Below, in pieces: positions 41-29,772 of a stretch of 33,218 nucleotides of DNA. Both the position numbers and the translations under genes were made by a program. The DNA lies in the NCBI GenBank assembly GCA_020722245.1, contig DYLE01000002.1, positions 1 to 33,218 of the forward strand, given 5' to 3'. The DNA is from Desulfonema limicola (GTDB taxonomy: Bacteria > Desulfobacterota > Desulfobacteria > Desulfobacterales > Desulfosalsimonadaceae). How positions within the stretch are numbered: position 1 is the first letter of the stretch; each line of letters opens with the position of its first letter. The notes below the pieces were generated by a model. It was not told the DNA's origin and did no database searches. It saw only the letters and a program-made list of their open reading frames with translations.

Positions 41-691
41 CCGGACAGCAATGATCTCCCGGATGAAGGTGAAAAAGGTCGGACATTAACTCAGGACGCT
101 CTGTATCTGTTGATGATGGTTCTGATTCTCATATTTGCCTCATTTGTTAAACCCGGCCCGGATGAAGCCGCTGTGTGGAAATTCATTTTCTCCGTCAAGT
201 GGTATGTAACCATCGGATTGCTGATCGTGCTGGCCTGGATGCTCAAATCCTGGTTTCAAAAAGACGAACTCACATCCTGGGTGGATGCTACCTGGGGTTT
301 TATGAAACAGATATTCCCCCTGCTGGCCATCGGTGTGATCGCCGCCGGATTTCTTCTCAGACGGCCCGGCCATCAAGCCCTGATCCCTGAAAAATATATC
401 GCCATGCTGGTGGGCGGAAATTCCCTGTGGGCCAACCTGTTTGCGTCGGTTGCCGGCGCGCTGATGTATTTTGCCACGTTGACCGAAGTGCCCATCCTTC
501 AGGGACTGATCGGCTCGGGAATGGGGCAGGGGCCCGCCCTGGCCCTGCTGCTCGCCGGACCCGCCCTCTCCCTGCCCAACATGATCGTCCTCGGAGGGGT
601 GCTTGGCGTTAAAAAAACCGCTGTTTTTGTTGCCATCATTGTCATCCTGTCAACCATTGCCGGTATTGGATACGGTATGTTTGCCGGATAA
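41..691 (+). CDS. Permease (COG0701/ArsP-like), C-terminal half; 5' end uncertain or truncated
   Basis: Hydrophobic ORF ending in LLAGPALSLPNMIVLGGVLGVKKTAVFVAIIVILSTIAGIGYGMF, typical of the second half of COG0701 permeases. The frame is open from ~41, but all three forward frames are closed in the first ~55 nt, so no N-terminal half is directly connected. Confidence 0.7.
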   Translation, partial: PDSNDLPDEGEKGRTLTQDALYLLMMVLILIFASFVKPGPDEAAVWKFIFSVKWYVTIGLLIVLAWMLKSWFQKDELTSWVDATWGFMKQIFPLLAIGVIAAGFLLRRPGHQALIPEKYIAMLVGGNSLWANLFASVAGALMYFATLTEVPILQGLIGSGMGQGPALALLLAGPALSLPNMIVLGGVLGVKKTAVFVAIIVILSTIAGIGYGMFAG

Positions 692-2874: not shown

Positions 2875-3318
2875 ATGCCAATTATGACCCGAAAATTAAA
2901 AATTTTGTTTTTATGCACCGGCAATTCCTGCCGCAGCCAGATGGCCGAAGGATGGGCCATGCATTTGAAATCCGATCAAATTGACGTAAGTTCCGCGGGC
3001 ATTGAAAAGCACGGGTTGAACCCGCTTGCGGTCCGGGCCATGGCGGAAGCCGGTGCAGACATATCGGCCCACCAATCCAAAACCGTGGATGAACTGCCGG
3101 ACCTGTCTTTTGATTATGTGATCACGGTCTGCGACCATGCCCATGAATCCTGCCCGTTGTTTCCGGGAAAGGCCGTGGTGGTCCATGCGGGATTTGATGA
3201 TCCGCCCCGGCTGGCCGCGGCTGCAAAAAACGATGAGGAGGCCATGATCCATTACCGTCGGGTGCGGGATGAAATCCGAAATTTTGTGCAGCAGTTGCCC
3301 CGTGCACTCAAAAAATAA
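2875..3318 (+). CDS. arsC: Arsenate reductase, LMW phosphatase-type
   Basis: KILFLCTGNSCRSQMAEGW P-loop (CTGNSCRS) and DYVITVCDHAHESCPLFPG. Confidence 0.92.
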   Translation: MPIMTRKLKILFLCTGNSCRSQMAEGWAMHLKSDQIDVSSAGIEKHGLNPLAVRAMAEAGADISAHQSKTVDELPDLSFDYVITVCDHAHESCPLFPGKAVVVHAGFDDPPRLAAAAKNDEEAMIHYRRVRDEIRNFVQQLPRALKK

Positions 3319-3330: not shown

Positions 3331-4425
3331 ATGACGGAATCCACCATTAAAAGATTATCGTTTCTGGATCGGTATCTTACCCTCTGGATTTTTCTGGCCA
3401 TGTTCATTGGTGTGGGCAGCGGGTATTTTCTGCCGGATGTAAAAAATTTTATCAACCGTTTCACCATGGGCACCACCAATATCCCCATTGCCATCGGCCT
3501 GATTCTGATGATGTATCCGCCCCTGGCCAAGGTGAAATACGAAAAGCTACGATTTGTATTCAGGGATGTCAAAGTGCTCAGCCTTTCTCTGGTGCAGAAC
3601 TGGATCATCGGACCGATTCTGATGTTTGTGCTGGCAGTGACCCTTTTGTCCGGATATCCGGAATACATGGTGGGGTTGATTCTCATCGGCCTGGCCCGGT
3701 GTATCGCCATGGTGATTGTATGGAACGACCTGGCCCACGGGGATACGGAATACTGCGCCGGTCTGGTGGCGTTTAACTCCATTTTTCAGGTGCTGTTTTT
3801 TTCGGTTTACGCCTATGTATTTATCACCATTTTGCCTCAGTGGATGGGACTGGAAGGCATGGTGGTGGATATTACCATCGGTCAGATTGCCGAAAGCGTT
3901 TTCATCTACCTGGGCATCCCGTTTATTGCGGGTCTTCTGTCTCGCGTGATCGGTTTGAAAAGCGTGGGCGCGGAACGTTATGAAAAAGGATTTATTCCCA
4001 AAATCAGCCCCATTACGTTGATTGCCTTGCTGTTTACCATCCTGGTCATGTTTTCCCTCAAAGGAGACTATATCATTCAACTGCCCCTGCATGTGGTTCA
4101 GGTTGCCATCCCGCTCCTGATTTATTTTGTGCTGATGTTTTTCGTCTCCTTCTGGTTATCCAAAAAAGTCGGGGCCACCTATGAGCAGACCACCACGCTG
4201 TCGTTTACCGCCGCATCCAACAATTTTGAACTGGCCATCGCCGTTTCGGTTGCGGTTTTCGGCATTAATTCCGGGCAGGCGTTTGCTGCGGTGATTGGGC
4301 CCCTGGTAGAGGTGCCGGCGCTGATCATGCTGGTCAACGTGGCCTTGTGGATGAAGCCCAGGTATTTCCCCTATGCGCTCAATACGCCCAGCGGGGTATG
4401 CCACGTCACCTGCAGGCCCCAGTAA
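3331..4425 (+). CDS. acr3: ACR3-family arsenite efflux transporter
   Basis: [32 protein letters not shown] and [25 protein letters not shown] are characteristic of ACR3; directly follows arsC. Confidence 0.93.
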
Positions 4426-6287: not shown

Positions 6288-6289
6288 TC

Positions 6290-7513: not shown

Positions 7514-7585
7514 TTTTGACAAGCATATCTTGCAGACAGATGAGGGGTGGCCTTCAATCTTTAAACACCCCATGAAAGATAAAAA

Positions 7586-9001: not shown

Positions 9002-9031
9002 AGCCAGGGATATAAAGGATGTGATGGCTTT

Positions 9032-9076
9032 AAGAGACGCCCCGAAGCAAGATGAACGCCGGGGCGTCTCTTTACG
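9032..9076 (+). terminator. Rho-independent-type terminator after fmdE
   Basis: Perfect 13-bp inverted repeat AAGAGACGCCCCG (9032-9044) / CGGGGCGTCTCTT (9060-9072), then TTTA. Confidence 0.75.
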
Positions 9077-9097
9077 GTCAAATATAGGGAGAATAGG

Positions 9098-9865
9098 ATG
9101 AGCACCACATTTCTGATCATTGCGTTTGTTACGATATTGGTCATTTCAGGCGTGTTTTCCATGTTCGGCAAGGGCGGCGGTTCGCTCTATACACCCGTGC
9201 TGGTGATGCTGGGCATGGCGGTGGGGCCGGCCATTTCCACCGCGCTTTTTTTAAATCTCGTGACAGCGTTTACCGCAACCATCGTCTTCCAGCGAAACAA
9301 GCTGGTGGACTACCGCTTCTGCCTTATTTTTCTGCCGGGGACCATCATCGGTTCATTTCTGGGCGCGGTGCTTTCCAGCATGGCCCCCAAGAATCTGCTT
9401 CTGGGGATATTTTCGGTCTTTCTCTATGCCGTGGGCCTGCTCCTGATCTTTTCGGCCAAGGAAAAACCCGGACAACAGGTGAAAAAGCTCACCGTCTGGA
9501 TGATCGCGCTCGTGACCGTATTTTCTTTCGGCGTGGGGGTGCTTTCCAGCCTTATCGGCGTGGGCGGCGGTTTGATTATTTTTCCCTTTCTCGTGCTCTA
9601 CATGAAATACGGGGCGCAGATGGCGGCCGGCGCCAATTCCTTAATCGTAACCGTCAGCTCCTTGGTGGGCACCATCGGGCATTTCGCTTTGGGCCAGGTG
9701 GACCTTCGGTTTCTTGCGGCTATGGCCGTAGCGTGCATCATCGGTTCAGCCATCGGCTCGCAGGTGACGGTGAAGGCAAATCCCGGCTTTGTCAAGGTGG
9801 CCTTCGCGTGCATTATGTGGTTTTTCGGCACGCAGATCGCGCTGAAGCTTCTGGGCGTTTTTTGA
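9098..9865 (+). CDS. TauE/SafE-family sulfite exporter-like permease
   Basis: Two internally repeated halves, GVFSMFGKGGGSLYTPVLVMLGM and GVLSSLIGVGGGLIIFPFLVLYM. Confidence 0.88.
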   Translation: MSTTFLIIAFVTILVISGVFSMFGKGGGSLYTPVLVMLGMAVGPAISTALFLNLVTAFTATIVFQRNKLVDYRFCLIFLPGTIIGSFLGAVLSSMAPKNLLLGIFSVFLYAVGLLLIFSAKEKPGQQVKKLTVWMIALVTVFSFGVGVLSSLIGVGGGLIIFPFLVLYMKYGAQMAAGANSLIVTVSSLVGTIGHFALGQVDLRFLAAMAVACIIGSAIGSQVTVKANPGFVKVAFACIMWFFGTQIALKLLGVF

Positions 9866-9929
9866 TCCATGTATTCATAATTTAAACGAATAGAAGAAAA
9901 GATGAAAGATTTAGCCATTCAAAAAAATA

Positions 9930-10073
9930 ATGAATGCCGCCATCCCCACCGGCCTGGTTTTTCAAAATAGAATGATATTAAAGGAAAAAATTAAAGCCGA
10001 AGGGATAAAGCAAATGTTCGCGGTTGTTCTTTTGGGTGTTGCCGTCAAACTGATCTGGAAACCAGATATTTGA
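9930..10073 (+). pseudogene. Possible 3' remnant of a second TauE/SafE permease
   Basis: 47-aa ORF ending IKAEGIKQMFAVVLLGVAVKLIWKPDI resembles the C-terminal helix of TauE/SafE proteins; no permease body. Confidence 0.35.
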
Positions 10074-10099
10074 GTCTATCAAGCCTGGAGCATGGAATG

Positions 10100-11533
10100 A
10101 TGCGAAAAATCATGATGACAATCGGTTCAGGGATAATCCTGCTGGTCGGATCCGGCTGCGCCGTCATCAACCCCACAAATCCCTATGATGCCGCTACCGC
10201 GGGTCTGACTATCTCACACATTCCCGCTGACGTAATGCAAGATCAGAGCGAAAATGTGAAAGAAAAAAAAGTTTCGGATCATTTGCCGCTGACCCTTGCC
10301 GATGCCGTCCGAATGGCGCTTGAAAATAATCCCGAAGTCGCGGCTGAAACGCATGAGATAGACCTGGCATCGGCCAAACATGCCCAGGCATTTGCCAGGG
10401 CGCTGCCCTCCCTTTCCGCTACGGGCGGTTACGTTCATGACATGGACGACCAGCGGCTGCTTCCTGCTCATTATAATGGGGAACCCGGGGTTTTCGGGGA
10501 TGATATTTATTCCGCCGATATCGTGCTGACACAGCCGCTGTTTGCTGGCGGCCGCTTGATTAAAGAAATCAGCGCCGCAAAGCTCCTTACCCAGGCGGCC
10601 ACCCACCGGCTTTCCCAAACGAAAAAAGAGATGGTGTTCAACGTGACCAGTACCTTCTATGCGATCCTGGCACAAAAAGAAGTCGTGGCATCCCTCGCCT
10701 TTTCCCAAAAAGCCATTGAAGAACACTTAACCCAGGTAAAAAATCTGATTGCTCAGAAAAAAGCCGCAAAGGTCGATCAGCTCCGCACCGAGGTGCGGCT
10801 TGCCGATATCATCCAGCAACTGATCAAGGCTCAAAACGTGCTGTCAGTGCAAAAAAGGGTGCTGGCCAACCTGATGGGGGTTCCGGATAGCGGCGATGGA
10901 TTCGACGTTAAAGGAGACCTTGCCTCTGAGCAGACCCTTTCTCTCGATCTTCAGGCCTCCCTTGAGAAAGCATTTAAACAGCGGTCGGACTACCTGGCCG
11001 CCCGTGCCGCCCTTGAAGCCGCGGCCGATAAAGTGGATGCCGCGCGCGCCGAGCACTGGCCGGTTGTTTCCCTGCAAGGAACCTATGGCATGCGATGGGC
11101 GGATGACCCCGCGGTTTTTCCGGACGGCACGGATAAATCCGACGACCTGGGCCGCGTCGGCGTTTTCGTCAATTTGCCGATTTTTGAAAGCGGGCTGATC
11201 ACGGCAAAGGTACGGGAACAACGTGCTGCCCTTGCCGCGGCCGGAGAAAGGCTCCGGGCGCTTGAACTCGGTATCCGCCTGGATGTGGAAACGGCCGCGC
11301 TTAACATTGAAACCGCTCAGAAACGGATCGATACAACCGAAAAAGCCGTTGATCAGTCAAAGGAAACCCTTCGCATCGAACGGGAGAAGTACGACCAGGG
11401 TAAAGGCTCAATTACCGACGTACTCGACGCCCAGTCGGCCATGCTTGACTCACAGACCAATTATTACAAGGCGCTGGCCGATTTCAACACGGCCCTTGCG
11501 CAGATGCGTCTTGCAACAGGAGAGATGAAATGA
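10100..11533 (+). CDS. TolC-family outer-membrane efflux lipoprotein
   Basis: Lipobox-like LLVGSGC; OEP repeats (LTLADAVRMALENNPEVAAE..., NLPIFESGLITAKVREQRAAL). ATGCGA start ~10100. Confidence 0.9.
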   Translation: MRKIMMTIGSGIILLVGSGCAVINPTNPYDAATAGLTISHIPADVMQDQSENVKEKKVSDHLPLTLADAVRMALENNPEVAAETHEIDLASAKHAQAFARALPSLSATGGYVHDMDDQRLLPAHYNGEPGVFGDDIYSADIVLTQPLFAGGRLIKEISAAKLLTQAATHRLSQTKKEMVFNVTSTFYAILAQKEVVASLAFSQKAIEEHLTQVKNLIAQKKAAKVDQLRTEVRLADIIQQLIKAQNVLSVQKRVLANLMGVPDSGDGFDVKGDLASEQTLSLDLQASLEKAFKQRSDYLAARAALEAAADKVDAARAEHWPVVSLQGTYGMRWADDPAVFPDGTDKSDDLGRVGVFVNLPIFESGLITAKVREQRAALAAAGERLRALELGIRLDVETAALNIETAQKRIDTTEKAVDQSKETLRIEREKYDQGKGSITDVLDAQSAMLDSQTNYYKALADFNTALAQMRLATGEMK

Positions 11534-12717
11534 AAAGCAGAAAATTCCGAATTATTATGACGATCATTGTGATTGTCGCGCTCATTGCCGGCGCTGGCGC
11601 ACTGATTAAGAAGAAAAAAGCGAAGCTGGCCACGGCCCCGAAGTACGGCCTGTCTCCCACCCTGGTTCATGTGGCGACCGCCAAAAACGGTAATCTTGAT
11701 ATTCAATTGAGTTACCTTTCCGTGGTTGAACCGTTTAATACGGCAAATGTTTCATCCCGGGTTGCGGCTTCGGTAGTGACAGTGGCCGTGGACGAGGGGG
11801 ACATGGTAAAGGCCGGCGATATACTGCTCAATCTCGATGCAAAAGACATCTACGAAAACATCGCAAGCCTGTCGGCCCAGGTCAAACAGGCCGAGGCCGA
11901 GCTTGCGGCCAACCAGGCGACGGTGGCGGCCCTTGAAAAATCCGCAAGCTATTGGAAGCGGGAGGCAAAACGGGACACGGCCCTTGCAAAAGACGGCGCC
12001 ATCCCGGAAGCCCAGGCCGAGGGGACGGTCAACAAGGCGGATGAAATAACGGGACAGTACGATGCCGCCCGCCGGAAATCAACCGCCCTGTCTGAGACCA
12101 TCCGGTCGATTAAACGAAAAAAAGCCCAGTTGCAGGCGCAGCTCGACTATTACAAACTGCGCTCCCCTTTTGACGGGGTCGTCACCAGCCGGCTGGTGGA
12201 TCCCGGCGACCTGGCATCCCCCGGAAGGCCGCTGATCACGGTGGAGGACAGAAGCCGCCTGATGCTTGCCTTTGATGTCCCCCAGCAGGATCTTGACCGC
12301 ATGCACGAGGGGCTGCCGGTGGTTTTTACGGTTTCGGGAAAATCCCTTCAGAAAAAAATCTCCCGCCTCTACCCGGCGCTGACGGCGTCGCGAATGGCGC
12401 GGGCTGAGGCCTATATCGATGGGTCGGACATGGCGGGACTTACGAGCGGGGCGTATGTGCCGGTAACCGTGCGGCTCGCACAACTTACAAACGTCACCCT
12501 CCTCCCCGCGGAGTGCCTGGTTTTCAATCAGGGCAAAAAACCGTATGCTTACCTGGTAAAAAACGGCCATATCGAGGTCCGGCCGGTTACGGTATTGGGC
12601 GATAACGGGACAGTCACGGCAATACAGGGAGTCAAGGCCGGCGAACAGGCGGTCGTCAACACCTTCCTGGGATGGGCGAACCTTGCTCAGGGAATGCCGG
12701 TGGAGGTGGCAAAGTGA
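11530..12717 (+). CDS. RND efflux periplasmic adaptor (membrane fusion protein)
   Basis: VSSRVAASVVTVAVDEGDMVKAGDILLNLD, coiled coil, LRSPFDGVVTSRLVDPGDLASPGRPL; overlaps tolC-like stop. Confidence 0.93.
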   Translation: MKSRKFRIIMTIIVIVALIAGAGALIKKKKAKLATAPKYGLSPTLVHVATAKNGNLDIQLSYLSVVEPFNTANVSSRVAASVVTVAVDEGDMVKAGDILLNLDAKDIYENIASLSAQVKQAEAELAANQATVAALEKSASYWKREAKRDTALAKDGAIPEAQAEGTVNKADEITGQYDAARRKSTALSETIRSIKRKKAQLQAQLDYYKLRSPFDGVVTSRLVDPGDLASPGRPLITVEDRSRLMLAFDVPQQDLDRMHEGLPVVFTVSGKSLQKKISRLYPALTASRMARAEAYIDGSDMAGLTSGAYVPVTVRLAQLTNVTLLPAECLVFNQGKKPYAYLVKNGHIEVRPVTVLGDNGTVTAIQGVKAGEQAVVNTFLGWANLAQGMPVEVAK

Positions 12718-15700
12718 ACCTGACAAAGTTTTCCTTAAGAAATCCATATACCATACTGGCGATAACCCTGGTCATTACAGCCTTGGGCGCATTTGCGTTT
12801 TTCCGGACCCCCACCGACCTGTTTCCCGATACCGTGCCGCCCCAGGTGGTGGTTATCACCGTGGAACCGGGAGCCGCGGCCCGGGATGTCTCGGACAAGA
12901 TCACCGAGATCATCGAAAAGGAGATCAACACCATCAGCGGGCTCAAAAGGATCGTCTCCACCTCGAGGGATGAGGTCTCATCCGTCAATGCCGAGTTCTA
13001 TTACTCAAAGAGTATCGGAGAGGCGGTCATTGACGTGCAAAACGCCATCAGTCGCATCCGGCCGGAACTGCCGAAAGATATACTGGAACCGCGCATTTAC
13101 CGGGTCACCGATGCGACCCGGCCGCTGTTGACCGTGGCCCTGTCCCCCAAAAAAAACAGCGCAAAAACACTCTCTGAAATCCGTCTTTTGGCGGAAAACC
13201 AGATCGAGGATGAAATCCTGCGGCTGCCCGGTATTGCGGATGTGGATGTATTCGGTGCGCATCAGCCTGAGGTTATGGTGAGGGTTTTTCGGGACCGGCT
13301 GAAGGCAAACCATTTATCCATCAACGACGTCATCGCAGCCCTGGCCGGGCAGAATGTCTCCAGCCCGGCCGGCACCATCTATTCTGGAAAAAATGAGTAT
13401 CTGCTGCGGACCACGGGAGAGTTCAAAAACATAAAAGAGATTTCAGATCTTTCCATCCGGCATGATGGAAAAGGGTTTTTACGGATTTCGGACGTGGCGC
13501 AGGTTTTTTTGGGTGAGCACGAACAGCGGAGCATCTATCACGGCAACGGAAAGCCCGCTATTGCGATCAATGTGCTTCGGCCGGAAAACGGGCCGACGGT
13601 GGCGGCAATCAATAGCTTCAAGAAATTGCTGCCCGAACTCGAAGCCCAGTACCCGGACATCGATTTTGCCATCACCGACGACCAGCAGCCTATAATCGAC
13701 ATCAATGTCCAAGGCATGCGCAGCAGCCTGCTCCAGGCGGTCATACTGACCGTGTTTATCATCTTCTTCTTTCTGGCCGATACCCGGGCCGCCATGGTGG
13801 TGTCGGTGAGTATTCCGCTTGCGTTTCTTGTATCCCTGGTGGTGCTCTGGTTTTCCCCGTATACCCTGAACATGGTGACCCTGTCCGGTCTGATCATCGC
13901 CGTTGGGATGGTGGTGGATGCATCCGTGGTGGTTTTGGAAAACATCTACCGGCATTTTCAGGCCATGAAGCAACCGGACGCTGTAAAAGCGGCCGAAGAG
14001 GGCGCGAGCGAGGTCTCCCTTGCCATTACCGCCGGCATGTTCACCACCGTGATCGTCCTGATACCGGTCATGTTCACCGGCGGATACACCCAGCAGGTGA
14101 TGCGGCCCTTAAACATGATGATCTCATCGACCCTGGTGGCATCCCTGCTGGTGGCTTTGACCATAATTCCGCTCATGGCGTCAAGGCTGCTTGGCCATTC
14201 CCATGAAAAGAAAAACCTGATCGAACGGGTATTTTCCTATACCGACAAGGGGGTTAACCGGCTGTCAGAATTCTATATGGCCATTCTCCGCCGGGCGCTC
14301 AAGCGGCCGATTATCACCCTGATTTTGGCAATCCTGTTTTTCATGGTCAGCATGCGCATCGTTAAACCGCTAATAGGCGGCGAATTGATGCCATTCATGG
14401 ACACCGGGATCGCCATTGTGGAGTTCGACACACCGGGTACCGACACCCCGGAACAGGTGGAATCCGTATTAAGCGAGGTGGAAAAGATGATCTATAAACA
14501 GCCCGGGGTGGAGATGGTATCCTCTGTGGTGGGGTCCGAACCCGGCCAGATCAGCTTCGGGGGGGGCGGCGCGACCACTCAATCCGCGAAAATTACCGTC
14601 AACCTGGTGGATCGACAACACCGGAATGAAACCATCTGGCAGATCGAGGACAAGTGGCGTAAAGCCTTGCGAAAAATCCCCGGCGTCCGTAGCTTTCGGG
14701 TGAGCGAATACGGCGCCACCCCGCTCTCCACCACCAAGGCGCCGCTTGACATCATCATCAGCGGCCCGGATACACGGGCGCTCAGCCGGCTGGCGGACCA
14801 ATGCATTTCGGCCTTAAAGGGGCTGCCCGGACTGGTGGATGTCAGACGGAGCTGGCACACCGACAAGGTGGAGCAGGATATTGACTTTGATCCCGCGCTT
14901 GCCCGGCTCTACCAGACCAATCCGGCCGACGCCACCCGGGAGCTCAAAGCCGCTGTCAAGGGGATCCCGGCGACACAGATGCGGCTTGAAGGTTTTCTCG
15001 ATATCCCGGTTAACGTTCAGTATGCCGATACGGACATCAACAACCCGAACAAAATCGACCAGGCGTATGTGTCCACCAAATTCGGGCCGGTCCCGCTTCG
15101 GGCCATGGCAAGGGTTGTTAAAAAGCACGACCAGCCGTTTATCACCCGGGAGCGCCTTGAAAACACCATCGATGTCACCGGCGGAAATTATATTTTTACC
15201 ATTGCCCAGGTTGCACAAATGGCGCAAAAGCACTTGGCCGAAATCCAATTGCCCCAGGGCTATTCCATTGATGTGGCCGGGTCATTTGCGGATATAAAAA
15301 CCGGGGAGGAGGAGATGGGCCGTGCCCTGATCATCGGCATCGTGCTGCTCTATTTCCTTTTGCTGGCCATGTTCCGATCCTTCGGCCATCCCGTAACCAT
15401 CATGGCCGCCATCCCGTTGGCCGTTGCAGGCGCCATGTGGGGGCTGCTGCTCTTTGACAAGCCCATGTGTAAACCGGCCACCATGGGTCTGATCCTTTTG
15501 GGCGGCACCATCGTCAACAACTCCATCCTGCTGATCGATTTCATCATAGAGGCGAGAAAGCGGGGTGTGCCGAAGACCGAGGCGATCCTCCAATCGGTGC
15601 GTTTGCGTATCCGGCCCATATTGATGACCACCGGATCCACGATCATCGGGCTTATCCCGCTGATATTTGAAATGGCGGTGGGTCTTGAACGGATGAGCCC

Positions 15701-15836
15701 ATTGGGGATCGTTGCGGCGTTTGGCCTGCTTGTAGGAACATTTTTAACCATGATCGTCATCCCGGTTGTCTACACGTCGTTGGACAGCCTGGGCGAAGGG
15801 TTCAGGCGCTTTTTTCGGCCGGAACAACAGGCATGA
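12714..15836 (+). CDS. RND efflux inner-membrane transporter (HAE1/AcrB-type)
   Basis: GTG start overlapping the MFP stop; GMVVDASVVVLENIYRH, PTDLFPDTVPPQVVV, GTIVNNSILLIDFIIEARKRG. Confidence 0.94.
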   Translation: MNLTKFSLRNPYTILAITLVITALGAFAFFRTPTDLFPDTVPPQVVVITVEPGAAARDVSDKITEIIEKEINTISGLKRIVSTSRDEVSSVNAEFYYSKSIGEAVIDVQNAISRIRPELPKDILEPRIYRVTDATRPLLTVALSPKKNSAKTLSEIRLLAENQIEDEILRLPGIADVDVFGAHQPEVMVRVFRDRLKANHLSINDVIAALAGQNVSSPAGTIYSGKNEYLLRTTGEFKNIKEISDLSIRHDGKGFLRISDVAQVFLGEHEQRSIYHGNGKPAIAINVLRPENGPTVAAINSFKKLLPELEAQYPDIDFAITDDQQPIIDINVQGMRSSLLQAVILTVFIIFFFLADTRAAMVVSVSIPLAFLVSLVVLWFSPYTLNMVTLSGLIIAVGMVVDASVVVLENIYRHFQAMKQPDAVKAAEEGASEVSLAITAGMFTTVIVLIPVMFTGGYTQQVMRPLNMMISSTLVASLLVALTIIPLMASRLLGHSHEKKNLIERVFSYTDKGVNRLSEFYMAILRRALKRPIITLILAILFFMVSMRIVKPLIGGELMPFMDTGIAIVEFDTPGTDTPEQVESVLSEVEKMIYKQPGVEMVSSVVGSEPGQISFGGGGATTQSAKITVNLVDRQHRNETIWQIEDKWRKALRKIPGVRSFRVSEYGATPLSTTKAPLDIIISGPDTRALSRLADQCISALKGLPGLVDVRRSWHTDKVEQDIDFDPALARLYQTNPADATRELKAAVKGIPATQMRLEGFLDIPVNVQYADTDINNPNKIDQAYVSTKFGPVPLRAMARVVKKHDQPFITRERLENTIDVTGGNYIFTIAQVAQMAQKHLAEIQLPQGYSIDVAGSFADIKTGEEEMGRALIIGIVLLYFLLLAMFRSFGHPVTIMAAIPLAVAGAMWGLLLFDKPMCKPATMGLILLGGTIVNNSILLIDFIIEARKRGVPKTEAILQSVRLRIRPILMTTGSTIIGLIPLIFEMAVGLERMSPLGIVAAFGLLVGTFLTMIVIPVVYTSLDSLGEGFRRFFRPEQQA

Positions 15837-15878
15837 GGGAAGAAAGAAAATTTTGAATCGGTAATATTAATAAAGAGA

Positions 15879-16115
15879 ATGCCTAGGCCATCAAAAAAAT
15901 CATTTACGTTAGTGAACTATGAAATCTGTAATCCGGCAAAATGCAACCCGGACAAAGGTCTTTGTGCCGCCGTACCCGAATGCTCACATAAAGTATTAAA
16001 ACAGATAGACGAGCTTTTGAATCGCCCATGGTATTCCAGGACCTGTGTATGGGATGCTGGGATTGCATTGAGGCCTGCCCGTTAAATGCTGTTTATGTAA
16101 AACATATTGGCTCTT
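15879..16115 (+). pseudogene. Ferredoxin-like 4Fe-4S protein with -1 frameshift at ~16013
   Basis: NYEICNPAKCNPDKGLCAAVPECSHKVLKQIDE in frame 1, continuing in another frame as AFESPMVFQDLCMGCWDCIEACPLNAVYVKHIGS*. Adding one G at GAG|CTTTT restores the ORF. Confidence 0.75.
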
Positions 16116-16305
16116 AAGGCTTTTTCGGAATAAAAAGGGACAAAACCTAATCCGAAAATGGCGCCTGTGAAAACGAAGAAGGGAACTGAATATTCAATAA
16201 CCAACAAGGGATAATCCATGAAGAAGGGACGATAATTTTTGAATACGGGATCTTCCTTGTGGGTTGCTGGATATTGAAAAATTCTGAAGACGAAAAGGAA
16301 ATACA

Positions 16306-16740
16306 ATGCAATCATCAAAACTCATTCTCATCATTACCTGTTTTTTTATGGCCCTTATGATAACGCTTCAATGTCCCGCACCCTGCCATGCGGAAGACGA
16401 TACCGCCAACCTGTCGCGCCTGTATGAAACGACGCGGATTGAGCTTCGCAATGGAGCGGCTTGCGGTATCAAAATCATGGAGACCAATGAAGAGCCCCTG
16501 GCCTTTGTTATTAAATGCCCGCAGGGGTTTGCGCTCTGCGGCAGCTTCAATATCCAGGCAATGGAGAAACGGAAAGTGACGGCGGTTATTTTTCAAAATT
16601 TCACCCCCAAGACCTTTGATGCCGCCCTGTCGGCGCCTGTTGCCGATTTGACCACTCCGGCAAAAGCCCTGGGCATTACCAGGGGGATGCGGGTCAGGGA
16701 TGCGCTGGAAAAAATGATGGCGGATGAAAAGAAGAACTGA
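16306..16740 (+). CDS. DUF1805-domain protein with signal peptide
   Basis: FVIKCPQGFALCGSFNIQAMEKRKVTAVIF...APVADLTTPAKALGITRGMRVRDALEKM; RBS AAAGGAAA. Confidence 0.75.
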   Translation: MQSSKLILIITCFFMALMITLQCPAPCHAEDDTANLSRLYETTRIELRNGAACGIKIMETNEEPLAFVIKCPQGFALCGSFNIQAMEKRKVTAVIFQNFTPKTFDAALSAPVADLTTPAKALGITRGMRVRDALEKMMADEKKN

Positions 16741-16777
16741 GTAAACAATCTATATAATTTATGTAAGAATTAGAAAA

Positions 16778-17770
16778 ATGACCCATTCCCATTTAACATC
16801 CTTTCATGATGAATTTCCAAAAGATTCTTGCCGGAGGGATGAATGCGGCGATGAACATTCCGGGCGTCATCATGTCAATATTGAGGAGACCAGCGGGGCA
16901 AGACTTTTAATCACCCTGGTCTTGAATCTGATCATTCCGATTGTCCAGATTATCAGCGGAAGCATTGCCCACAGCATGGCCCTGATTTCCGACGCCGCCC
17001 ATAATTTCAGTGATTTTACCGCTGTCCTGATTTCATACATTGCGTATCGAATCGGTAAAAAAGGGGCCACAGCGCAAAATACCTTCGGGTACCGCCGGGC
17101 CGAGATCATGGCGGCTTTATTCAATGTGGTGATTCTGGCCAGCGCTTCCCTGTTTATTTTATATGGCGCGGTGAAACGGTTCTTAGCACCTGAAATCGTT
17201 TCCGGCGGGATTGTGATATGGGCCGCGGCCATCGGCATCGCGGGAAACGGCTTTTCCGCCTGGCTGCTCCATCGTGACGCCAAACACAATCTGAATGTGC
17301 GCGGCGCTTTTCTGCACATGATGGGAGATTTTCTGACCTCTGTGGCGGTTCTGATCAGCGGCGTTGTAATGATTTTTTACCCCTGGTACTGGCTCGATCC
17401 CTTGCTTTCCATCCTGATTGTCATATTTATCCTTAAAAACTGCTGGTCCATACTCAAATCTTCCACCATGATTTTAATGAACGCCACACCCGCCAGCATC
17501 GATTTAAATAAAATTCAATCTTCTCTGTCACGCATCGAGGGAATAACGAGTGTGCACTATCTTCATGCCTGGCCCTTGAGCTCCTCGGGTATCGCTTTTT
17601 CATGCCACCTGGTTGTCTCGGATCAACTCCTCAGCCAAACGGAAAAAATATCCAAAAAAGTAAAACATTTGCTCTTTCACGAGTTCGGCATCGATCATCC
17701 GGTTTTGCAGTTTGAAACTAAATCCTGCGGCAACGGGTCCATGTTGTGCGAGATGCTGGCCGACAAATAA
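16778..17770 (+). CDS. Cation diffusion facilitator (CzcD/ZitB-like) transporter
   Basis: SMALISDAAHNFSDFTAVLISYIAYRIGKKGATAQNTFGYRRAEIMAALFN...LHMMGDFLTSVAVLISG. Confidence 0.93.
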   Translation: MTHSHLTSFHDEFPKDSCRRDECGDEHSGRHHVNIEETSGARLLITLVLNLIIPIVQIISGSIAHSMALISDAAHNFSDFTAVLISYIAYRIGKKGATAQNTFGYRRAEIMAALFNVVILASASLFILYGAVKRFLAPEIVSGGIVIWAAAIGIAGNGFSAWLLHRDAKHNLNVRGAFLHMMGDFLTSVAVLISGVVMIFYPWYWLDPLLSILIVIFILKNCWSILKSSTMILMNATPASIDLNKIQSSLSRIEGITSVHYLHAWPLSSSGIAFSCHLVVSDQLLSQTEKISKKVKHLLFHEFGIDHPVLQFETKSCGNGSMLCEMLADK

Positions 17771-17814
17771 GAGGAGACAGTTGATGGGTAAGCATTTAAC
17801 GAAAGGGAAAAAGA

Positions 17815-18021
17815 ATGAACCTGAAAACCATCCGGATTGAACTCGCACCTCAGCAAATCCAAAAGATTTTATCCATCGCCTTAGATGATGACAAAGAAGG
17901 TGCATTGGAGTTTATCAAGGGAACCCTGGCAAAACAGATCGAAAAAGAATTGACACCCCACTGAGTGCCGGTCTTCGAGGCCAGTTACGGCCCCGCCCAG
18001 GCTATGCGGTTTAAGGAATGA
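17815..18021 (+). CDS. Small conserved protein, candidate selenoprotein (in-frame TGA at 17962-17964)
   Basis: MNLKTIRIELAPQQIQKILSIALDDDKEGALEFIKGTLAKQIEKELTPH-[TGA]-VPVFEASYGPAQAMRFKE*. The post-TGA frame stays open for 18 codons, and GGCC-AGTTAC-GGCC hairpin lies 18 nt after the TGA. Confidence 0.55.
17962..17995 (+). promoter_or_regulatory. Candidate UGA-Sec codon plus bacterial SECIS hairpin
   Basis: TGA 17962-17964; stem GGCC (17979-17982) / GGCC (17989-17992) with flanking CG/CG pairs across one mismatch, loop AGTTAC (17983-17988), 18 nt from TGA to loop. Confidence 0.5.
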
Positions 18022-19755: not shown

Positions 19756-22251
19756 ATGGCGGTTAACCGTTTATCCGGGATTTGGATCATGTTATTGCTG
19801 GTATTCATGCTTTCAGCGTGCGAGCAAAGAGACAGCGCTGTATTGAAACCTGCAAATGAAACGAAGAATGACAACGCCATGGGCGTTTGCCCGCCATTTC
19901 CGCTTCGTGATGAATCGGGCAAGGTCATTAATCCTGTGGCCGGGATTAATGAGACAGCCCCTTATTCTTCGCGCCAGACCTGCGGCGTCAAAGGCTGCCA
20001 TGATTACGAAAAGATCACGGAGGGCTTTCACTTCACCCAGGGCAAAGGCGAGAAAGTCCCGGCGATCATGGCCGAGCGGTATGCCTGGGTGACATCGCCC
20101 GGCAATTATGGCGGCAACTGGTGCTCGCCCGCGCCGCTTTACCGGCAGCTTGCACCCAAAAAGAACTCGAGCGCCCGTGCCATCGACATGACATCGTTCG
20201 ACTTCGTGACCGCAACCTGCGGCAACTGCCACCCGGGCGGCGGCCCTCTTGAATTGGATCGGGACGGCAAACGATACGACACCCAGATGCGTGATCCGGC
20301 ATCAAACATGGTAGCGGGCGGCGAGAACGGTCTTGACGGTGATTATTATAAAGCGCGATGGTCAGAGACGGGCGTCATCGAGGCGGATTGCCTTCTGTGT
20401 CACATGCCCGAATACGATATGAAAAAGCGAAACGACGAACTGGCGAATCTGAACTTTCGCTGGGCCGCAACTGCCGGCGCGGGTTTCGGAACCGTGACCG
20501 GAAAAGTGAGCGCCAGCGAACAGCCTGCCGTTGTTTACGACAAAAACAAGTTTGATGCCGACGGCAATGTTCTTGTTCATATCGCCCCGGAACCGCGCAA
20601 TGAAACCTGCCTGAACTGCCATTTCAAGCCCGATTGGAAAAAGCGCGGCGCGGCCTATTCAGCACGCACGGACGTCCATATGGTAGCAGGGCTTCGCTGC
20701 GTGGATTGCCACGCCGCCGGCAGCAAGGCGGCGGACCCGCGCATCCGGGGCCGAGAGGTTCACCAGTTCGGCAAGGGCGACGACCCGTCCGGTTGGGTCC
20801 GCAATGATCTTGATAACACAGTACGGTCGTGCGAGAGCTGCCACCTTCAAGGCTGGCGCAATGCCCCGCGCGCAACGCACACCTGGCTCCCGCCGCTTCA
20901 CATGGAAAAAATCGCCTGCCAGACCTGTCATATTCCGGCCCGTGCGGTAAAAAGCGCCCTGGTTCAGGCGAGCGACGTTTATAATCCCGCGCCCCGGATC
21001 ATGCCGCCGCCAAAGCATATCTGGACATTTTACGACCAGGACATGGCTTTCTGGAACCACTATGGTGAGCTGGATCTGTTCACGGGAAAGGATGAGCCGA
21101 CGAACATCACCCGGCCGACACTCATCCGCTATAAAGGAAAAATCTATCCCGCTAACCGGGTTCACAGCGCATGGGTGGGCTTCGAGGAGCTGGGCAAGCC
21201 TGGCTTGAATCAGCTCTTCATGAAGGATTTCTTCCAGATGTGGACCCAACACAGGGCCGACCCCAAGAACAAATATCCGGGGCTTGATAAAATTACTGAC
21301 GACAATCAGGACGGCATCATCGAGGTGAACCGGCCGGAGGAGATCGACGCGCTTCTCGTCGCAACCAGGTCATATCTTACCGCTACGGGATTTCCGCTTT
21401 CGAACCGGCGTCTGGCATGGGTCTCCGACAACAAAGCGTATTTTTCATCAACGGAGTTTAAGGACCTGCCGCATGAGCCGTGGGAAGCAACGGCCTATGC
21501 ATCGGTATACAAATTTTCCCATGACGTGGCGCCGGCGCGGGCCGCACTGGGTGCCGGTGGGTGCACAGACTGCCATCGTGATGGTTCTCCTTTTTTCCAG
21601 GGCCATGTCCTTGAAACGACTTTTTCTTCAACCGATGGACGTCCGCATTGGGTTCCCAATTTTCAAGTTCTCGGCATATCTCCTTTATGGGTGAAACTGG
21701 GGACATTGCGGGAAGAATTCATAAAACCGGTTCTCTATGGCCTGGTTGGAGCAATGCTCTTTTTATGGCTGACTGTATTTCTGATGGATGTCGCCGTCCA
21801 AAAAAGTAGTTTCAATGCAGGTTTTGACAGGGCCCTGATTTTCGCGGTTCTGGCAGCCGGGCTGATTGGTGGTTTCATGATTGTCATGACCCCTGGCCTT
21901 ATTGAATATATGATAATCAGCCGATTCAATATGGATGCGCACCATTTCTGGGTTGCAAGCGGCGTCCTTTTGGCCGGGCTTTTGGTATTGCTGAAGGACA
22001 CATCCCCCGATCGCCTCAAACGCGGTGGTATTTTATTGATTTATTGCTGCGGCTGGTTTGCGCTGGGTCTCGCTGTCGTTTCCGGCGCCCTGATGTTGTT
22101 TAAATTTACAGCGATGGAGACTGCCGTCCGAATGGCATACACGCTTTTCGACGCGGGTCTTTTGTTGTCGGCGGCCGTGAGCTCAATCCTGTTGTTGTTG
22201 CGAATCATAAAACCGTCAACCCCAGCGGGGTTTAAACCGAAGGCGCGCTAA
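19756..22251 (+). CDS. Octaheme c-type cytochrome lipoprotein with C-terminal membrane domain (Cys paralog)
   Basis: Lipobox-like MLSAC; seven CxxCH motifs (CGNCH, CLLCH, CLNCH, CVDCH, CESCH, CQTCH, CTDCH) plus one CGVKGCH; hydrophobic helices near the C terminus. Confidence 0.9.
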   Translation: MAVNRLSGIWIMLLLVFMLSACEQRDSAVLKPANETKNDNAMGVCPPFPLRDESGKVINPVAGINETAPYSSRQTCGVKGCHDYEKITEGFHFTQGKGEKVPAIMAERYAWVTSPGNYGGNWCSPAPLYRQLAPKKNSSARAIDMTSFDFVTATCGNCHPGGGPLELDRDGKRYDTQMRDPASNMVAGGENGLDGDYYKARWSETGVIEADCLLCHMPEYDMKKRNDELANLNFRWAATAGAGFGTVTGKVSASEQPAVVYDKNKFDADGNVLVHIAPEPRNETCLNCHFKPDWKKRGAAYSARTDVHMVAGLRCVDCHAAGSKAADPRIRGREVHQFGKGDDPSGWVRNDLDNTVRSCESCHLQGWRNAPRATHTWLPPLHMEKIACQTCHIPARAVKSALVQASDVYNPAPRIMPPPKHIWTFYDQDMAFWNHYGELDLFTGKDEPTNITRPTLIRYKGKIYPANRVHSAWVGFEELGKPGLNQLFMKDFFQMWTQHRADPKNKYPGLDKITDDNQDGIIEVNRPEEIDALLVATRSYLTATGFPLSNRRLAWVSDNKAYFSSTEFKDLPHEPWEATAYASVYKFSHDVAPARAALGAGGCTDCHRDGSPFFQGHVLETTFSSTDGRPHWVPNFQVLGISPLWVKLGTLREEFIKPVLYGLVGAMLFLWLTVFLMDVAVQKSSFNAGFDRALIFAVLAAGLIGGFMIVMTPGLIEYMIISRFNMDAHHFWVASGVLLAGLLVLLKDTSPDRLKRGGILLIYCCGWFALGLAVVSGALMLFKFTAMETAVRMAYTLFDAGLLLSAAVSSILLLLRIIKPSTPAGFKPKAR

Positions 22252-23362: not shown

Positions 23363-23795
23363 ATGGAGTTCAATTCCACTGCTCCCCTGCGTGATGAGTT
23401 CGGCGTCATCGTCGGCCTCATGGCAATCGTGGCCGACATCAGCGAGCGCAAGCGGATGGACCAAGCCCTCCGGGAAAGCCTCCAGAAGTCGCGGCGGATA
23501 TTCGATGAGACGATTCACGCCCTGGCCGGTTGCCCGGATCATCCAACAGCACCACGAACGGATGGACGGCACCGGCTACCCGTTGGGACTGCGGGGAGAG
23601 GATATACTTCCCGAGGCAAAAATTTTGACCGTGGCTGATGTTGTCGAAGCGACCGCATCGTATCGCCCCTACCGGCCGGCCAACAGGATTGATGCTGCTC
23701 TTGCGGAAATAACGGTATACAGGGGGAGTCGCTATGCTCCTGAAGCTGTTGATGCCTGTCTTGCCTTGTTCAACAAAGAATTCATTCTGGAGTAA
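23363..23795 (+). pseudogene. PAS/PAC - HD-GYP signalling gene remnant, catalytic core deleted
   Basis: PAC end (EFNSTAPLRDEFGVIVGLMAIVADISERKRMDQALRE...IDETIHALA analog) is fused at CCCTGGCCG to the HD-GYP tail in another frame (PWPVARIIQQHHERMDGTGYPLGLRGEDILPEAKILTVADVVEA). Confidence 0.8.
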
Positions 23796-23817
23796 TTATC
23801 AGAAACAGGAGATTTCA

Positions 23818-25603
23818 ATGCGGATTTTATTCATGAAAAACAAATTCCCCCCGCTCTTCATCTTTATGTTTTTTGGTGTGGTGCTGTCTGCCCATGCCTC
23901 AACGATCAATTCACTGGTCGAGGCGGTTCAACTTAAAGAATGGATCGATAACAATTACCGCACCGGGACGGGAGAACGGGTAGTCCTCATCGATGTGGTG
24001 CCGGGAATAGAGAGCCGTGAAAGCGGGTTTTCCGGTGATTTTGAAAATTTAAAAAAGCAGCTTGCCAAAAAATTCGGCAAACAGTCGCCTGCCTATAAAT
24101 TATTGGATCAGCAGAATCGGGATGGTTTGCTGGGGCATATCCCCGGAGCGATTCTCAATATCTCGCATGACGATCTGGAGACGATGAAGCGAAACGACGG
24201 TCCCATAGACGTGGATCATCAGGTCGGGAGCGGGGATCGCGTTGATGAGCTTCTCCAGTCTCACGGCATAACGCCCGACGATGTCATCGTCATCACCAGT
24301 TCCCAGCAGACTCCCTGGACGGTTTGTGCTCCGCGTCTCTGGTGGACGCTTTACTACTGGGGCTTTTCCCCTGAAAGGATCAAACTTCTGAATGGCGGCA
24401 ACAAGGCGTATGCGCTGGCCGGCTATAAACTTGAAGGCGATGTCGCGCAACCTGAAATCAAGCCGTCAACGATGACCGTCGACGCCGTTCCCACCCGTCA
24501 TTTTGAGTCAAGAATCGGATTGCAGGAGATGATTGATCTGGTTGACAGCGGCAAGACCAGCAATGGGAGGTAACTCTGCTGGATGTCCGCCAGCCTCCGG
24601 CGGCCTTTTATCTGAAAGATTCGAAAAACGCCGCCGGATTACAAAAGCCGGATGGTATTCCGGACATTTACCAGGTCAAAGGGTTCAGCTATAATGCTCA
24701 TGACAAGCTTTTTACCCGCGCATCAGACAAAAAAATTTCAATCTTAGTCAGATGCTGTTTGCAAAGGAAGCCAACGACGGAAAAACGGCCTGGCTTATTT
24801 TTGACCCTGCCGGTGATCCGCCGATTCCCCTCCCCAATGGGTTTGTGACGCTGCATATGGTTAAAACATCATCCGGCATGGGGCCTCTCCCTATCCCGAT
24901 TGGGACCCGAAGCGGCGATTTTGGCGGAATCATCAAAGGAGCGCGCCTGATCAAGTCCGATACTTACAATCTCACAGTTTCTTCAGTAACCGGCAAGGAC
25001 AATCGTTTCAAGAGCCGTGAAGAACTGATCGCCGTCTTTGAAAAAGCAGGAATCGACGGGAAAAAGCCAATTATTTTCTACTGCAACTCGGGCGCTCTCA
25101 GTTCGTTCTATTTCTATGCCCTGCATGAGATCGCCGGGTTCGAAAATGTCAGGATGTATGACGGATCATGGCAGGAATGGGCCAATCTGACTGCGTTTGA
25201 ACCGGTTGACACCCGTTATGTCCGCCGGGACGCTGAAATGCTCTACCCATCATTGCCGGCCATGAATCCGGCCGTGATGATGTTCTCCGGTGAGAACAGC
25301 TACCTGGAATGGAACGGCGCACGATTTGCCAACAGGGTAACGGATGCTCCGGCAACGGCCAAAGAGATCAAACCGGGTGGAACATTGAAGGGGGGGAATA
25401 TGCACTGGGATACGCTGCACAGATCCGAGCATGTTGTCTTCAGACCTTCAAAAACAGTCAGCTCCGCGAAGGAGCTTAAAAATTACACCTCTTCAACCGA
25501 TTGGCCGGAGATGAATACGGCCCCCGATTATAAAGGCATTGCCGAAAGAATTGCCGAGGAAGACCGCGCATTCCCGCATAAAACCCTGGAAACAGCAAAA
25601 TGA
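23818..25603 (+). pseudogene. Exported rhodanese-domain protein interrupted by two -1 frameshifts
   Basis: Signal peptide and rhodanese segments (VVLIDVVPG..., IIFYCNSGALSSFYFYALHEIAGFENVRMYDGSWQEW) run across three frames. One G near 24565 and one A in 24729-24735 restore a single ~595-aa ORF. Confidence 0.75.
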
Positions 25604-25911: not shown

Positions 25912-27255
25912 TTGTTAAATCATTATTCCTTGAAGATAAAGAGAAATATCATTGTGTATCGATTGCAACTGATACTGATACTTCTTATCGCCTCTCCGGC
26001 GTTTTCCGGTGAATTGCCATACAAAAACGTCAACCTCGGGCCAGCAAATATTTCTATAGGCGGCGAATACCGGCTTCGGGGAGAATATGACAACAATTTC
26101 GATATTAAGAAATACGCGCCGGAAAATGACGATTCCTTCCTTCTCTCCCGGCTCAGGCTCGAATTGAGCGCGGTGTTCCCTTCCTCTCTGAAGACCTTTT
26201 TGCAGTTACAGGATTCAAGAAGCCTGGGGGCAAAATTTGACGATTCCGACTTTAAGGAAAGCAACCCCTTTCATGACAACATGGATATCCGGCAGGCTTA
26301 TGTCGATTACAGACTTTCCAGCGGCTTTTCCTTCCAGGGGGGCCGGCAAGAGATCGCTTTTGGGGACAGGCGGATTTTCGGACCGGGCAACTGGGGAAAC
26401 ACCGGCCGATATGTCTGGGATGCGGCCAGAATACGGTATACAAATGCGTGGGTGGATTCCCATACCTTTTTCGGCCGGTTCATCATCCGGGACCCGGACA
26501 GATGGCCCAACAAGCATGCGGACGGCCCCACCGCCTATGCCAACTATACCATGATTAAAAACCTGCCCTTTGACCTGGATCTGTTTTATATCATCAAGAG
26601 CGATTCCCACGGGGATACGATCGGCGAGTCCGGGACCGGGAACCTGGCCTGTCACAACACCGGGTTTGCGTTAAACGGCACATTAAGCCGCTGGGATTAT
26701 GGCGCAACCTTTGTCTACCAGTTCGGGGACAAGGGGGATGATGATATTTCCGCCTACGGGCTTGCGGCCCGGCTCGGGTATACCTTTGCCCTGCCGTGGT
26801 CGCCCCATGTGATGATCCAGTTCATAAACGGCTCGGGCGACAAGAATCCGAATGACGGCAGAAACGGCACTTTTGACGGGGTTTTTTCAGGGGCCGACAC
26901 GGTGCTCTACGGATGGATGAACCTGTTTTTCTGGTCAAACACCAGGGAGTACCGCATCGACACGGTCCTTTCCCCCACAGAAAAACTTTCTTTCCGGGGC
27001 GAGTATCATTATTTTACCCTGGATGAAAAAAAGGATGCCTGGTATTATCCGGGCAATGCCCAGCGACGTGATCCCACGGGAAACTCGGGCCGGGACCTGG
27101 GCCAGGAGATCGATCTCACCTTGCACTACCAGGCGAAAAAATGGCTTGATCTCAGCGGCGGCTACTGCTTTTTCTTTCCCGGCGAGTTCATCCGAAATAC
27201 AGGCCCGCATCCGGATGCGTCGTGGGCGTTTCTGCAGACCGTGTTCATGTTTTAA
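25912..27255 (+). CDS. Outer-membrane beta-barrel porin (alginate-export/ExtI-like)
   Basis: Signal peptide; NISIGGEYRLRGEYDNN..., FSFQGGRQEIAFGDRRIFGPGNWGNTGRYVWDAARIRY; ends in VFMF. Confidence 0.8.
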   Translation: MLNHYSLKIKRNIIVYRLQLILILLIASPAFSGELPYKNVNLGPANISIGGEYRLRGEYDNNFDIKKYAPENDDSFLLSRLRLELSAVFPSSLKTFLQLQDSRSLGAKFDDSDFKESNPFHDNMDIRQAYVDYRLSSGFSFQGGRQEIAFGDRRIFGPGNWGNTGRYVWDAARIRYTNAWVDSHTFFGRFIIRDPDRWPNKHADGPTAYANYTMIKNLPFDLDLFYIIKSDSHGDTIGESGTGNLACHNTGFALNGTLSRWDYGATFVYQFGDKGDDDISAYGLAARLGYTFALPWSPHVMIQFINGSGDKNPNDGRNGTFDGVFSGADTVLYGWMNLFFWSNTREYRIDTVLSPTEKLSFRGEYHYFTLDEKKDAWYYPGNAQRRDPTGNSGRDLGQEIDLTLHYQAKKWLDLSGGYCFFFPGEFIRNTGPHPDASWAFLQTVFMF

Positions 27256-27266: not shown

Positions 27267-29677
27267 ATGAAAAAGGATTCCCGTTTCCATTTAACTCTAT
27301 TTTGGCTTGTCATGGTATCGGTTGACAGGGCATATGAACAGGCGAAACAGGACGCCATGGGCATCTGCCCGCCGATCTTTCTGCAGGACGAGAACGGAAA
27401 CATCATCAACCCGGTTTCAGGTGTAAACGCCGATGTACCCTACAGCCCGAAACAGACCTGCGGCAAGTGCCACGATTACGATAAAATTACGAAAGGATAC
27501 CATTTCCAGCAGGGCAAGGGCGAGAAGATGACACCCGAGTATGCCGCGCGCTACCCCTGGTGCACCAGCCCGGGCCAGTACGGCGGCCGGTGGTGAAGCC
27601 CCGGCCCGATCTTTCCGCAGTTGGCGGAAAAGCATAACACATCCCCCCTTCAGATCGATTTTACTTCATATACCTTTGCGAAAATGTGCGGCCTTTGCCA
27701 TCCGGGCGGGGCTGCCTGGAGTATGATCGAAACGGCAACCGCTATGACCAGTTTGCCGAAAATCCGAAAAACGCGATTATCCCCGGCGAAACAAACGGCC
27801 TGGACGGCGATTATTTCAAGTCTGACTGGGCCAAAAGCGGCGCAATGGAGGCGGACTGCCTCATGTGCCACCTTAAGGAGTATGACAACGACGCCCGTAT
27901 GAAACAGATATCGGCCTTGAATTTCAGGTGGGCGGCCACGGCCGGGGCCGGCTTCGGGGAGGTTGTCGGCAGTGTCGCCAAAAAAGAGACACCCTTGGTG
28001 GAATACGACCCCGCCCGATTCGGACCGGACGGTACGGTGACGCTTCCGGTGATGAGAAAACCGCTCAATGAAAACTGCCTGTTCTGCCACCATGAGTCGG
28101 GATGGAAAAAGCGGGGCCAGTCGTTTTCAAAACGGACCGACGTGCATATGCGGGCCGGGCTTTTGTGCGTGGACTGCCATGTGACCGGCCGGGAGGCAAC
28201 GGACAAAAGGATTTACGGCCGGGAGGAACACCAGATCGGCAAGGGGGACGATCCCGGCGATTTTGTCCGCGACGACCTGGACAACACCATGCGCGCCTGT
28301 GAAGACTGCCATGACAAAGGGATCTTAAACGCGCCGATCCCCAAACACAAAGGATTTCCTCCGTCACACTTCGAACATATCGCTTGCCGGACCTGCCACA
28401 TGCCGTGGCACCAGGTCAAGGCGGCCCTGATCCAGGATGCCTCGGTGTTCAACACAAGCCCCCGGATTGAGCCGCCGTCCAAGCGGATCTGGTCCTTTTA
28501 CGGGCCGGACATGAAGCCATGGAACTACTACGGATTTGCCCTGGGATATCCTGAAGGGGATCAGCCCCTCACCCAGTACCGGCCGGTGCATGCGCTCTAC
28601 AAGGGGAAAATTTATCCCGTAAACCGGGTTTACACCCGCTGGGTCGGTATCAAAACCGACAGTCAGCCGGGTATCGACATGCCCCACATGACGGATATCT
28701 TCATGATGTGGAAAACCCACATGGACGATCCGAACAAAAACTACCCCCTCCTTTCCATGATCAACGACGATAATAAGGACGGGTATCCCGAGGTTAATCG
28801 GCCGGAAGAGATCCGCGCACTGATCGATTCGGTGGTTGCCATGCTCAAGAAAAAGGGGGAATCACTTGGAGGTAAAACCGTCGTGTTTGTGGACGGGGAT
28901 CGCTACACAGCAGATGGAAGCACCTGGACCGACATCCCCAAAAAACCCTATGAATACTCCCCCTACGGATCCGTGTTTAAATACTCCCACGATATCTGCC
29001 CGGCCAAAAACGCCCTGGGCGCAAAGGGCTGCACGGACTGCCACAGCGACAAATCGGACTTCTTTTTTGGAAAGGTCATGAAACAGCCCTTTGATGCGAA
29101 CGGAACACCCACCTATGAGCCGCAATACAAACTCATGGGGTATGACGGTCATGCCCGGCGCTATGCAGGCATGGCCGGCGCCACGGCCGCTTTTTTCAAG
29201 TGGCTGGCCATTATCGTGCTTGCCGGTCTTTTTATTCATATCCTGCTCGATTTTTTTGCAAGGCGCCGTGACATCAAAAAAAGAAAGGATATGGATGCCC
29301 AGGACATGGCCGGAGAATATCAGCGTTTTAATTCAAACTTTTTGGCCCAGCACCTGCTTTTGGCCGTAAGCGTTATCCTTTTGAGCGTATCGGGTGTTTT
29401 CCTGTGGGGATTGCGCTACCCCGGCGCGCACTGGGCCGCCGTCCTCACCGGCGCGGCCGGCGGTATCGACTTCTGGCGGCTGGTCCACCGGGCCGGCGGC
29501 CTTGTTTTAACCTTTACCTGTTTCTATCACCTGGTTTACTGCCTCGTCCACCCGGAAGGCCGCCGGGATTTTATCCTGATGCTTCCCCGGGCAAAGGACG
29601 TTGCCGATTTTTTCAAAAACCTGGCCTGGTTTGTGGGCCTTGCCAAGGAGCGCCCGCAATTCGGACGGTTCTCCTAA
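27267..29677 (+). CDS. Octaheme c-type cytochrome fused to cytochrome b-like domain; candidate selenoprotein, with -1 frameshift at 27708-27711
   Basis: Eight CxxCH motifs (CGKCH, CGLCH, CLMCH, CLFCH, CVDCH, CEDCH, CRTCH, CTDCH), paralogous along its length to ORF 19756. In-frame TGA at 27594-27596 aligns with the paralog's Cys. Adding one G at 27708-27711 joins ORF 27684-frame to ORF 27686-29677. Confidence 0.8.
27594..27630 (+). promoter_or_regulatory. Candidate UGA-Sec codon plus bacterial SECIS hairpin
   Basis: TGA 27594-27596; stem TTTCCGC (27612-27618) / GCGGAAA (27624-27630), loop AGTTG (27619-27623), 22 nt between TGA and loop, G at loop position 2. Confidence 0.7.
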
Positions 29678-29772
29678 TCCATTTCCGTCCCGGCCGCTTC
29701 CCCGGCTCCCTGATGTGGATGCATGGACGGATGTCAAAAACGGAAAAGGCTCAGGAGCACCCGGAAGAATAA
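29677..29772 (+). pseudogene. Detached 3' end of cytochrome b domain
   Basis: The main frame stops at QFGRFS*. Directly afterwards another frame reads IHFRPGRFPGSLMWMHGRMSKTEKAQEHPEE*, a typical FdnI/cytochrome b C-terminal tail. Confidence 0.65.

Follow-up and report, generated by a model that had tools for sequence, protein, structure and literature searches.

A probable selenocysteine codon in an octahaem cytochrome gene

In the window, i.e. the whole 33,218-nucleotide stretch of DNA analyzed here, an in-frame UGA within the gene of an octahaem c-type cytochrome is very probably a selenocysteine (Sec) codon, and sequence comparisons point to a real family of Sec cytochromes, apparently uncatalogued and distinct from both ExtKL and the octahaem tetrathionate reductase (OTR). 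An earlier reading of this DNA, made from sequence only, had proposed a candidate Sec-containing octahaem cytochrome here; this proposal is supported, having withstood those attempts at refutation that could be run (tRNA-Sec, SelD, Sec/Cys alternation at the column and the hairpin). The features on which the argument turns are the following:

27267..29677, + strand: predicted Sec octahaem c-type cytochrome, split over two frames in the assembly and carrying a b561-type membrane domain at its C-terminus (8 CXXCH; PF01292; full-length homologs)
27594..27596, + strand: UGA as putative selenocysteine codon (28 loci have UGA at this column, 28 distinct ones have Cys)
19756..22251, + strand: intact Cys-containing paralog with TGC at 20122-20124 (8 haem motifs; groups with the Cys clade)
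27612..27636, + strand: SECIS-like hairpin, stem TTTCCGC/GCGGAAA, loop AGTTG (present in 28/28 UGA genes and in 0/28 distinct Cys genes; more stable than expected from synonymous re-encoding)
27705..27716, + strand: site of a 1-nt deletion (frameshift), from the DNA alignment to the ortholog L019, with the base missing near 27709
29676..29677, + strand: junction at which 199 nt are missing by comparison with L019 (blastn pieces 27585-29676 / L019 1-2093 and 29677-29769 / L019 2293-2385)

The TGA at 27594-27596 interrupts an open reading frame whose ATG at 27267 is in frame with it, exactly as the sequence-only reading had it, translation included, and homology continues through the TGA. The further claim that it replaces precisely a Cys codon of the paralog is likewise correct: tblastn pairs it with the TGC at 20122-20124. 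Joining both frames of the gene yields an 803-residue product with eight CXXCH motifs and, at its C-terminus, a match to PF01292 (b561-type membrane domain) at 35 bits; the Sec position lies between haem 1 and haem 2.

Sec, Cys or neither at one column across homologs

Among distinct homologous loci, the column holds UGA in 28, Cys in 28 and neither in 11, the Cys count being that of 30 rows less two duplicates (L083, which is the window paralog, and L101, which is L011). Thus, the alternation of Sec and Cys that had been anticipated among homologs was found at exactly the same column. A protein search of 146 relatives, together with a scan of the genome collection, recovered orthologs with TGA at the column from genome G012 (62% identity), two Meg22 deltaproteobacterial MAGs and Desulfococcus sp. 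4484_241 (locus L019; 85% identity and free of the frameshift), and more distant members with the same TGA from genome G003, Candidatus Tharpella aukensis and one further MAG. By profile search, 21 of 391 genomes from the order and 52 of 396 from the phylum contain relatives. No other in-frame stop was reported in the UGA orthologs; the single-contig genome G405 encodes two copies with one in-frame TGA each, the first of which is covered by the column-by-column check. Two of the Sec cytochromes (L034:2879-5355 and L035:3926-7957), from Candidatus Tharpella aukensis and another MAG, are much larger forms in which a long insert separates haems 3 and 4; the L035 protein reaches 1343 residues.

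A maximum-likelihood tree computed with the column masked requires no fewer than four changes of the Sec state on branches with good support. In it, the Sec gene of the window joins L019, and its Cys paralog joins the Cys clade; the deep placement of L010, L011, L034, L035 and L133 is unsure because of their long branches. The homologs with neither residue comprise a subclade (L090-L099, family code f36) and L133, which read LTGNLITYG...QLAKK in the region of the column and are devoid of the hairpin; SelB and tRNA-Sec are present in the seven genomes of such homologs that were tested. Since 11 homologs have neither residue, Sec or Cys is not universal in the family and some members apparently work without either.

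The hairpin downstream of the UGA

The window hairpin consists of a 7-bp stem and a loop that starts 22 nt past the TGA and has G as its second nucleotide; the window Cys paralog (19756-22251) has no such hairpin. Both the geometry and the absence from the paralog had been noted in the earlier reading and proved accurate. Hairpins with a G in the first two loop positions follow the UGA at 16 or 22 nt in all 28 UGA genes and in none of the 28 distinct Cys homologs, and the loop motif AGTT recurs in every one of the UGA genes, although in L010 the AGTT hairpin requires one stem mismatch and the scan scored another hairpin there, giving the weakest p of the set (0.10). Covariation is modest: some outer stem pairs are compensated (C-G to T-A at pair 5), others are broken, and the inner pairs are nearly fixed.

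As the hairpin overlaps a conserved peptide, QLA, it could in principle be a mere by-product of that peptide and of nucleotide composition, a reading that we regard as extremely improbable. Random synonymous re-encoding seldom reaches the observed stability (median p 0.007 for the 28 UGA genes). Moreover, the UGA genes encode the peptide under the loop as CAG-TTG/TTA-GCG; homologs of the Cys or neither type that share QLA have other codons for it (CAGCTTGCA, CAACTGGCC, CAGCTGGCC, CAGTTGGCA and others) and form no hairpin.

Selenocysteine machinery

A UGA of this kind would be decoded by SelB and tRNA-Sec together with the hairpin just downstream. The machinery that the sequence-only reading proposed to look for in the source genome (selABCD and tRNA-Sec) was recovered in part: the MAG to which the window belongs (2.25 Mb, 77.8% complete) encodes an ordinary high-scoring tRNA-Sec with a UCA anticodon and a SelD (L044, G000:C203:4215-5132) which itself has an in-frame UGA (TEKTRASGUAAK), while neither selA nor selB could be found there. 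This absence is not decisive, as the MAG is incomplete and SelB is present in 20 of the 21 UGA-carrying relatives tested (missing in G003). A tRNA-Sec was likewise detected in 20 of 21 tested UGA-carrying genomes (missing in G248). The presence of SelB was also considered as a discriminator between UGA and Cys carriers and rejected, since Cys-carrying genomes of the phylum have SelB too.

Related bacteria are known to possess a selC*-type tRNA-Cys with a UCA anticodon (PMC7609411), by which a UGA might be read as cysteine. Several Desulfobacterota do have divergent tRNA-Sec-like genes (UCA or GCA) beside a second selB. Nevertheless, the ordinary tRNA-Sec of the window's own MAG and of nearly all tested UGA carriers speaks against cysteine decoding, as does the occurrence of the second tRNAs of the UCA type (L186, L187, L192) in genomes whose homologs are of the Cys or neither type; we consider it very improbable and retain decoding as Sec. 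Divergent genes of this tRNA-Sec-like kind, with either GCA (Cys) or UCA as anticodon, lie at L184-L192 (G249, G217, G274, G623, G636, G706, G405, G162 and G182), and a second selB lies beside or near them in G249, G217, G274, G623, G636 and G706.

Integrity of the window copy

The frameshift reported downstream of the TGA is real in the assembly, which is one base short near 27709 relative to L019. A second lesion, unnoticed in the earlier reading, is the 199-nt deletion at 29676/29677, which puts the residual 3' homology (29677-29769), and hence the end of the protein, in another frame. With two lesions in the same gene, the TGA might be regarded as one more inactivating mutation, meaningless in itself; yet 27 further loci free of these lesions, among them L019 at 85% identity, retain the TGA and with it the hairpin, making this account of the TGA a most unlikely one. 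The TGA is common to the orthologs and older than both lesions.

Between the window gene and L019, the differences at codon positions 1, 2 and 3 number 71, 52 and 261 respectively, and 213 codons differ synonymously as against 100 nonsynonymously. The distribution over codon positions indicates that the window gene was under selection until recently; the lesions are either recent or artefacts of assembly. The window copy is a recent pseudogene or was damaged in assembly, and intact orthologs exist. The caveat of the sequence-only reading, that the gene might be a pseudogene, accordingly stands for the window copy, which as a whole may be one, and falls for the family, for which a plain pseudogene is rejected on the strength of the UGA column, the hairpin and the codon-position differences.

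Genomic neighborhood and the link to arsenic resistance

The genes around the window cytochrome that bear on its possible role are:

25912..27255, + strand: outer-membrane porin, Alginate_exp (PF13372), 197.5 bits; the porin family recurs beside the cytochrome elsewhere
23734..24573, + strand: rhodanese-like protein, remote relative of ExtH (NF040901 at 98.3 bits, below the cut-off of 200)
24752..25603, + strand: rhodanese-like protein, remote relative of ExtH (PF00581; NF040901 at 54.8 bits, below the cut-off of 200)
3331..4425, + strand: ACR3-type arsenite efflux transporter of the SBF family (PF01758; 75.5% identical to the ACR3 of L134)
2893..3255, + strand: gene with an ArsC-like low-molecular-weight phosphatase fold (tblastn 99 bits with an L145 protein matching TIGR02691)
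185..688, + strand: partial ArsP-type permease (103 bits by tblastn against ArsP_1 of L134)
10070..15836, + strand: RND efflux set of outer membrane protein, membrane-fusion protein and pump (PF02321, PF16576, PF00873)

The porin and the two rhodanese-like genes lie upstream of the Sec cytochrome, and the porin family is also found near the cytochrome in six other loci, with HMM support in four. Positions 1-18000 of the window constitute a metal and arsenic resistance island, which combines the ArsP part, the ArsC-like gene and ACR3 with a pyridine-nucleotide oxidoreductase and a Crp regulator, and further includes FmdE, TauE, the RND efflux set and cation efflux. Elsewhere, RND efflux genes and TauE recur at family loci, and genome G162 shows the order ArsR-type regulator, ArsP, ACR3, ArsE-like thioredoxin, porin, Sec cytochrome, ExtKL and a thioredoxin family gene.

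ArsP, ACR3 or ArsC was detected by tblastn in 10 of 26 family loci (the window included) as against 0 of 30 control regions (Fisher p 1.5e-4), a p-value to be taken as approximate: some queries come from family loci, the control regions are shorter than the window, and they were drawn in a single arbitrary sample from those target genomes that belong to the Desulfobacterota. In many of the family loci no ars gene was detected.

Proposed function

The fused b-type membrane domain suggests quinol as the donor: electrons would pass from quinol via this domain and on along the haems, so that a sulfur or metalloid substrate would be reduced in the periplasm. A metalloid substrate is a tentative proposal, somewhat more likely to be wrong than right; the genomic association with a porin, rhodaneses and arsenic-resistance genes hints, weakly, at oxyanions of arsenic, selenium or tellurium, or the thio-forms of these, as the likeliest candidates. 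The most specific version, an uncatalogued selenoenzyme family with Sec and a Lys-ligated catalytic haem that acts as a quinol-fed arsenic or thio-metalloid reductase in arsenic-resistance islands, is more doubtful still.

If correct, the family would add a further multihaem Sec cytochrome, spread over many families of the phylum, to ExtKL and OTR. Its natural Sec, Cys and neither forms would allow a direct comparison of what selenium adds to a haem enzyme, and the arsenic-resistance linkage offers a testable role in the metalloid chemistry of anoxic sediments. Such genes are easily overlooked, since gene calling that terminates at UGA splits them.

Comparison with known multihaem cytochromes

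A 2026 catalogue of prokaryotic selenoproteins includes, as multihaem cytochrome families, ExtKL and OTR/TIGR04315 (OTR from GenBank annotation), and its text has no further multihaem family under 'cytochrome' (PMC13188914). A literature search on octahaem with arsenic or selenoprotein yielded nothing on the window family. The methanogenesis multihaem cytochrome MmcA (TIGR04314) shows a weak match over several haems (33-45 bits), but its cut-off of 250 bits is unreached, and the window proteins have eight haems.

The closest parallels are with OTR (TIGR04315, including its Sec members; structure 1SP3), which like the window family has eight haems, with Sec or Cys placed between the first two. 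The family scores 32-48 bits against TIGR04315, where the curated cut-off is 375, and is thus, by sequence, a remote relative of OTR and not a member by the curated test. In an hhalign comparison (probability 98.3), haems 3-7 align one to one and OTR Lys153 falls on the invariant WKKRG of the family, with haems 1, 2 and 8 unaligned; the alignment leaves out the Sec segment, so that the Sec/Cys, lying between the same two haems as OTR Cys64, matches it by position alone. Lys153 presumably ligates the active haem of OTR, with Cys64 near that haem. The TIGR04315 members themselves show Sec/Cys alternation at NNF(U/C), which by a manual count along the printed alignment corresponds to residue 64 of 1SP3, the OTR chain of Shewanella; across the phylum this alternation is seen in many genomes, at L059-L078 and further loci of TIGR04315. 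A search of PDB sequences with the family profile gave no match, and two AlphaFold2 runs on 19 aligned sequences gave models that were too poor (mean pLDDT 52 and 50). From this remote homology, we see an even chance of an OTR-like active site, with Sec at the catalytic haem in the role of OTR Cys64. Unlike OTR, the window family has a Sec segment that is unalignable and farther from haem 2, a fused b-type membrane domain and other neighbors.

ExtKL (NF040886, from Geobacter and relatives) shares with the family a Sec in a multihaem c-type cytochrome and the proximity of a rhodanese and a porin. The operon order extH-extI-extKL (PMC5877670) resembles that of rhodanese, porin and Sec cytochrome in the window, and the family gene of G162 lies just upstream of a true ExtKL, so that the window cytochrome might be thought a selenite/tellurite-operon cytochrome of the ExtKL kind and not an OTR-like enzyme. 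We hold this to be unlikely: NF040886 has no match to the window cytochromes, and ExtKL has five haems with the Sec in a domain after them (NKAGHxIPDGUPTPNR), as against eight haems with the Sec between the first and the second. The neighbors differ as well, the window rhodaneses scoring 98 and 55 bits against the ExtH cut-off of 200 and the porin being without an NCBIfam match. Identity with ExtKL is thus rejected on model match, haem count and Sec position, whereas a role in selenite or tellurite reduction may be common to ExtKL and the window family.
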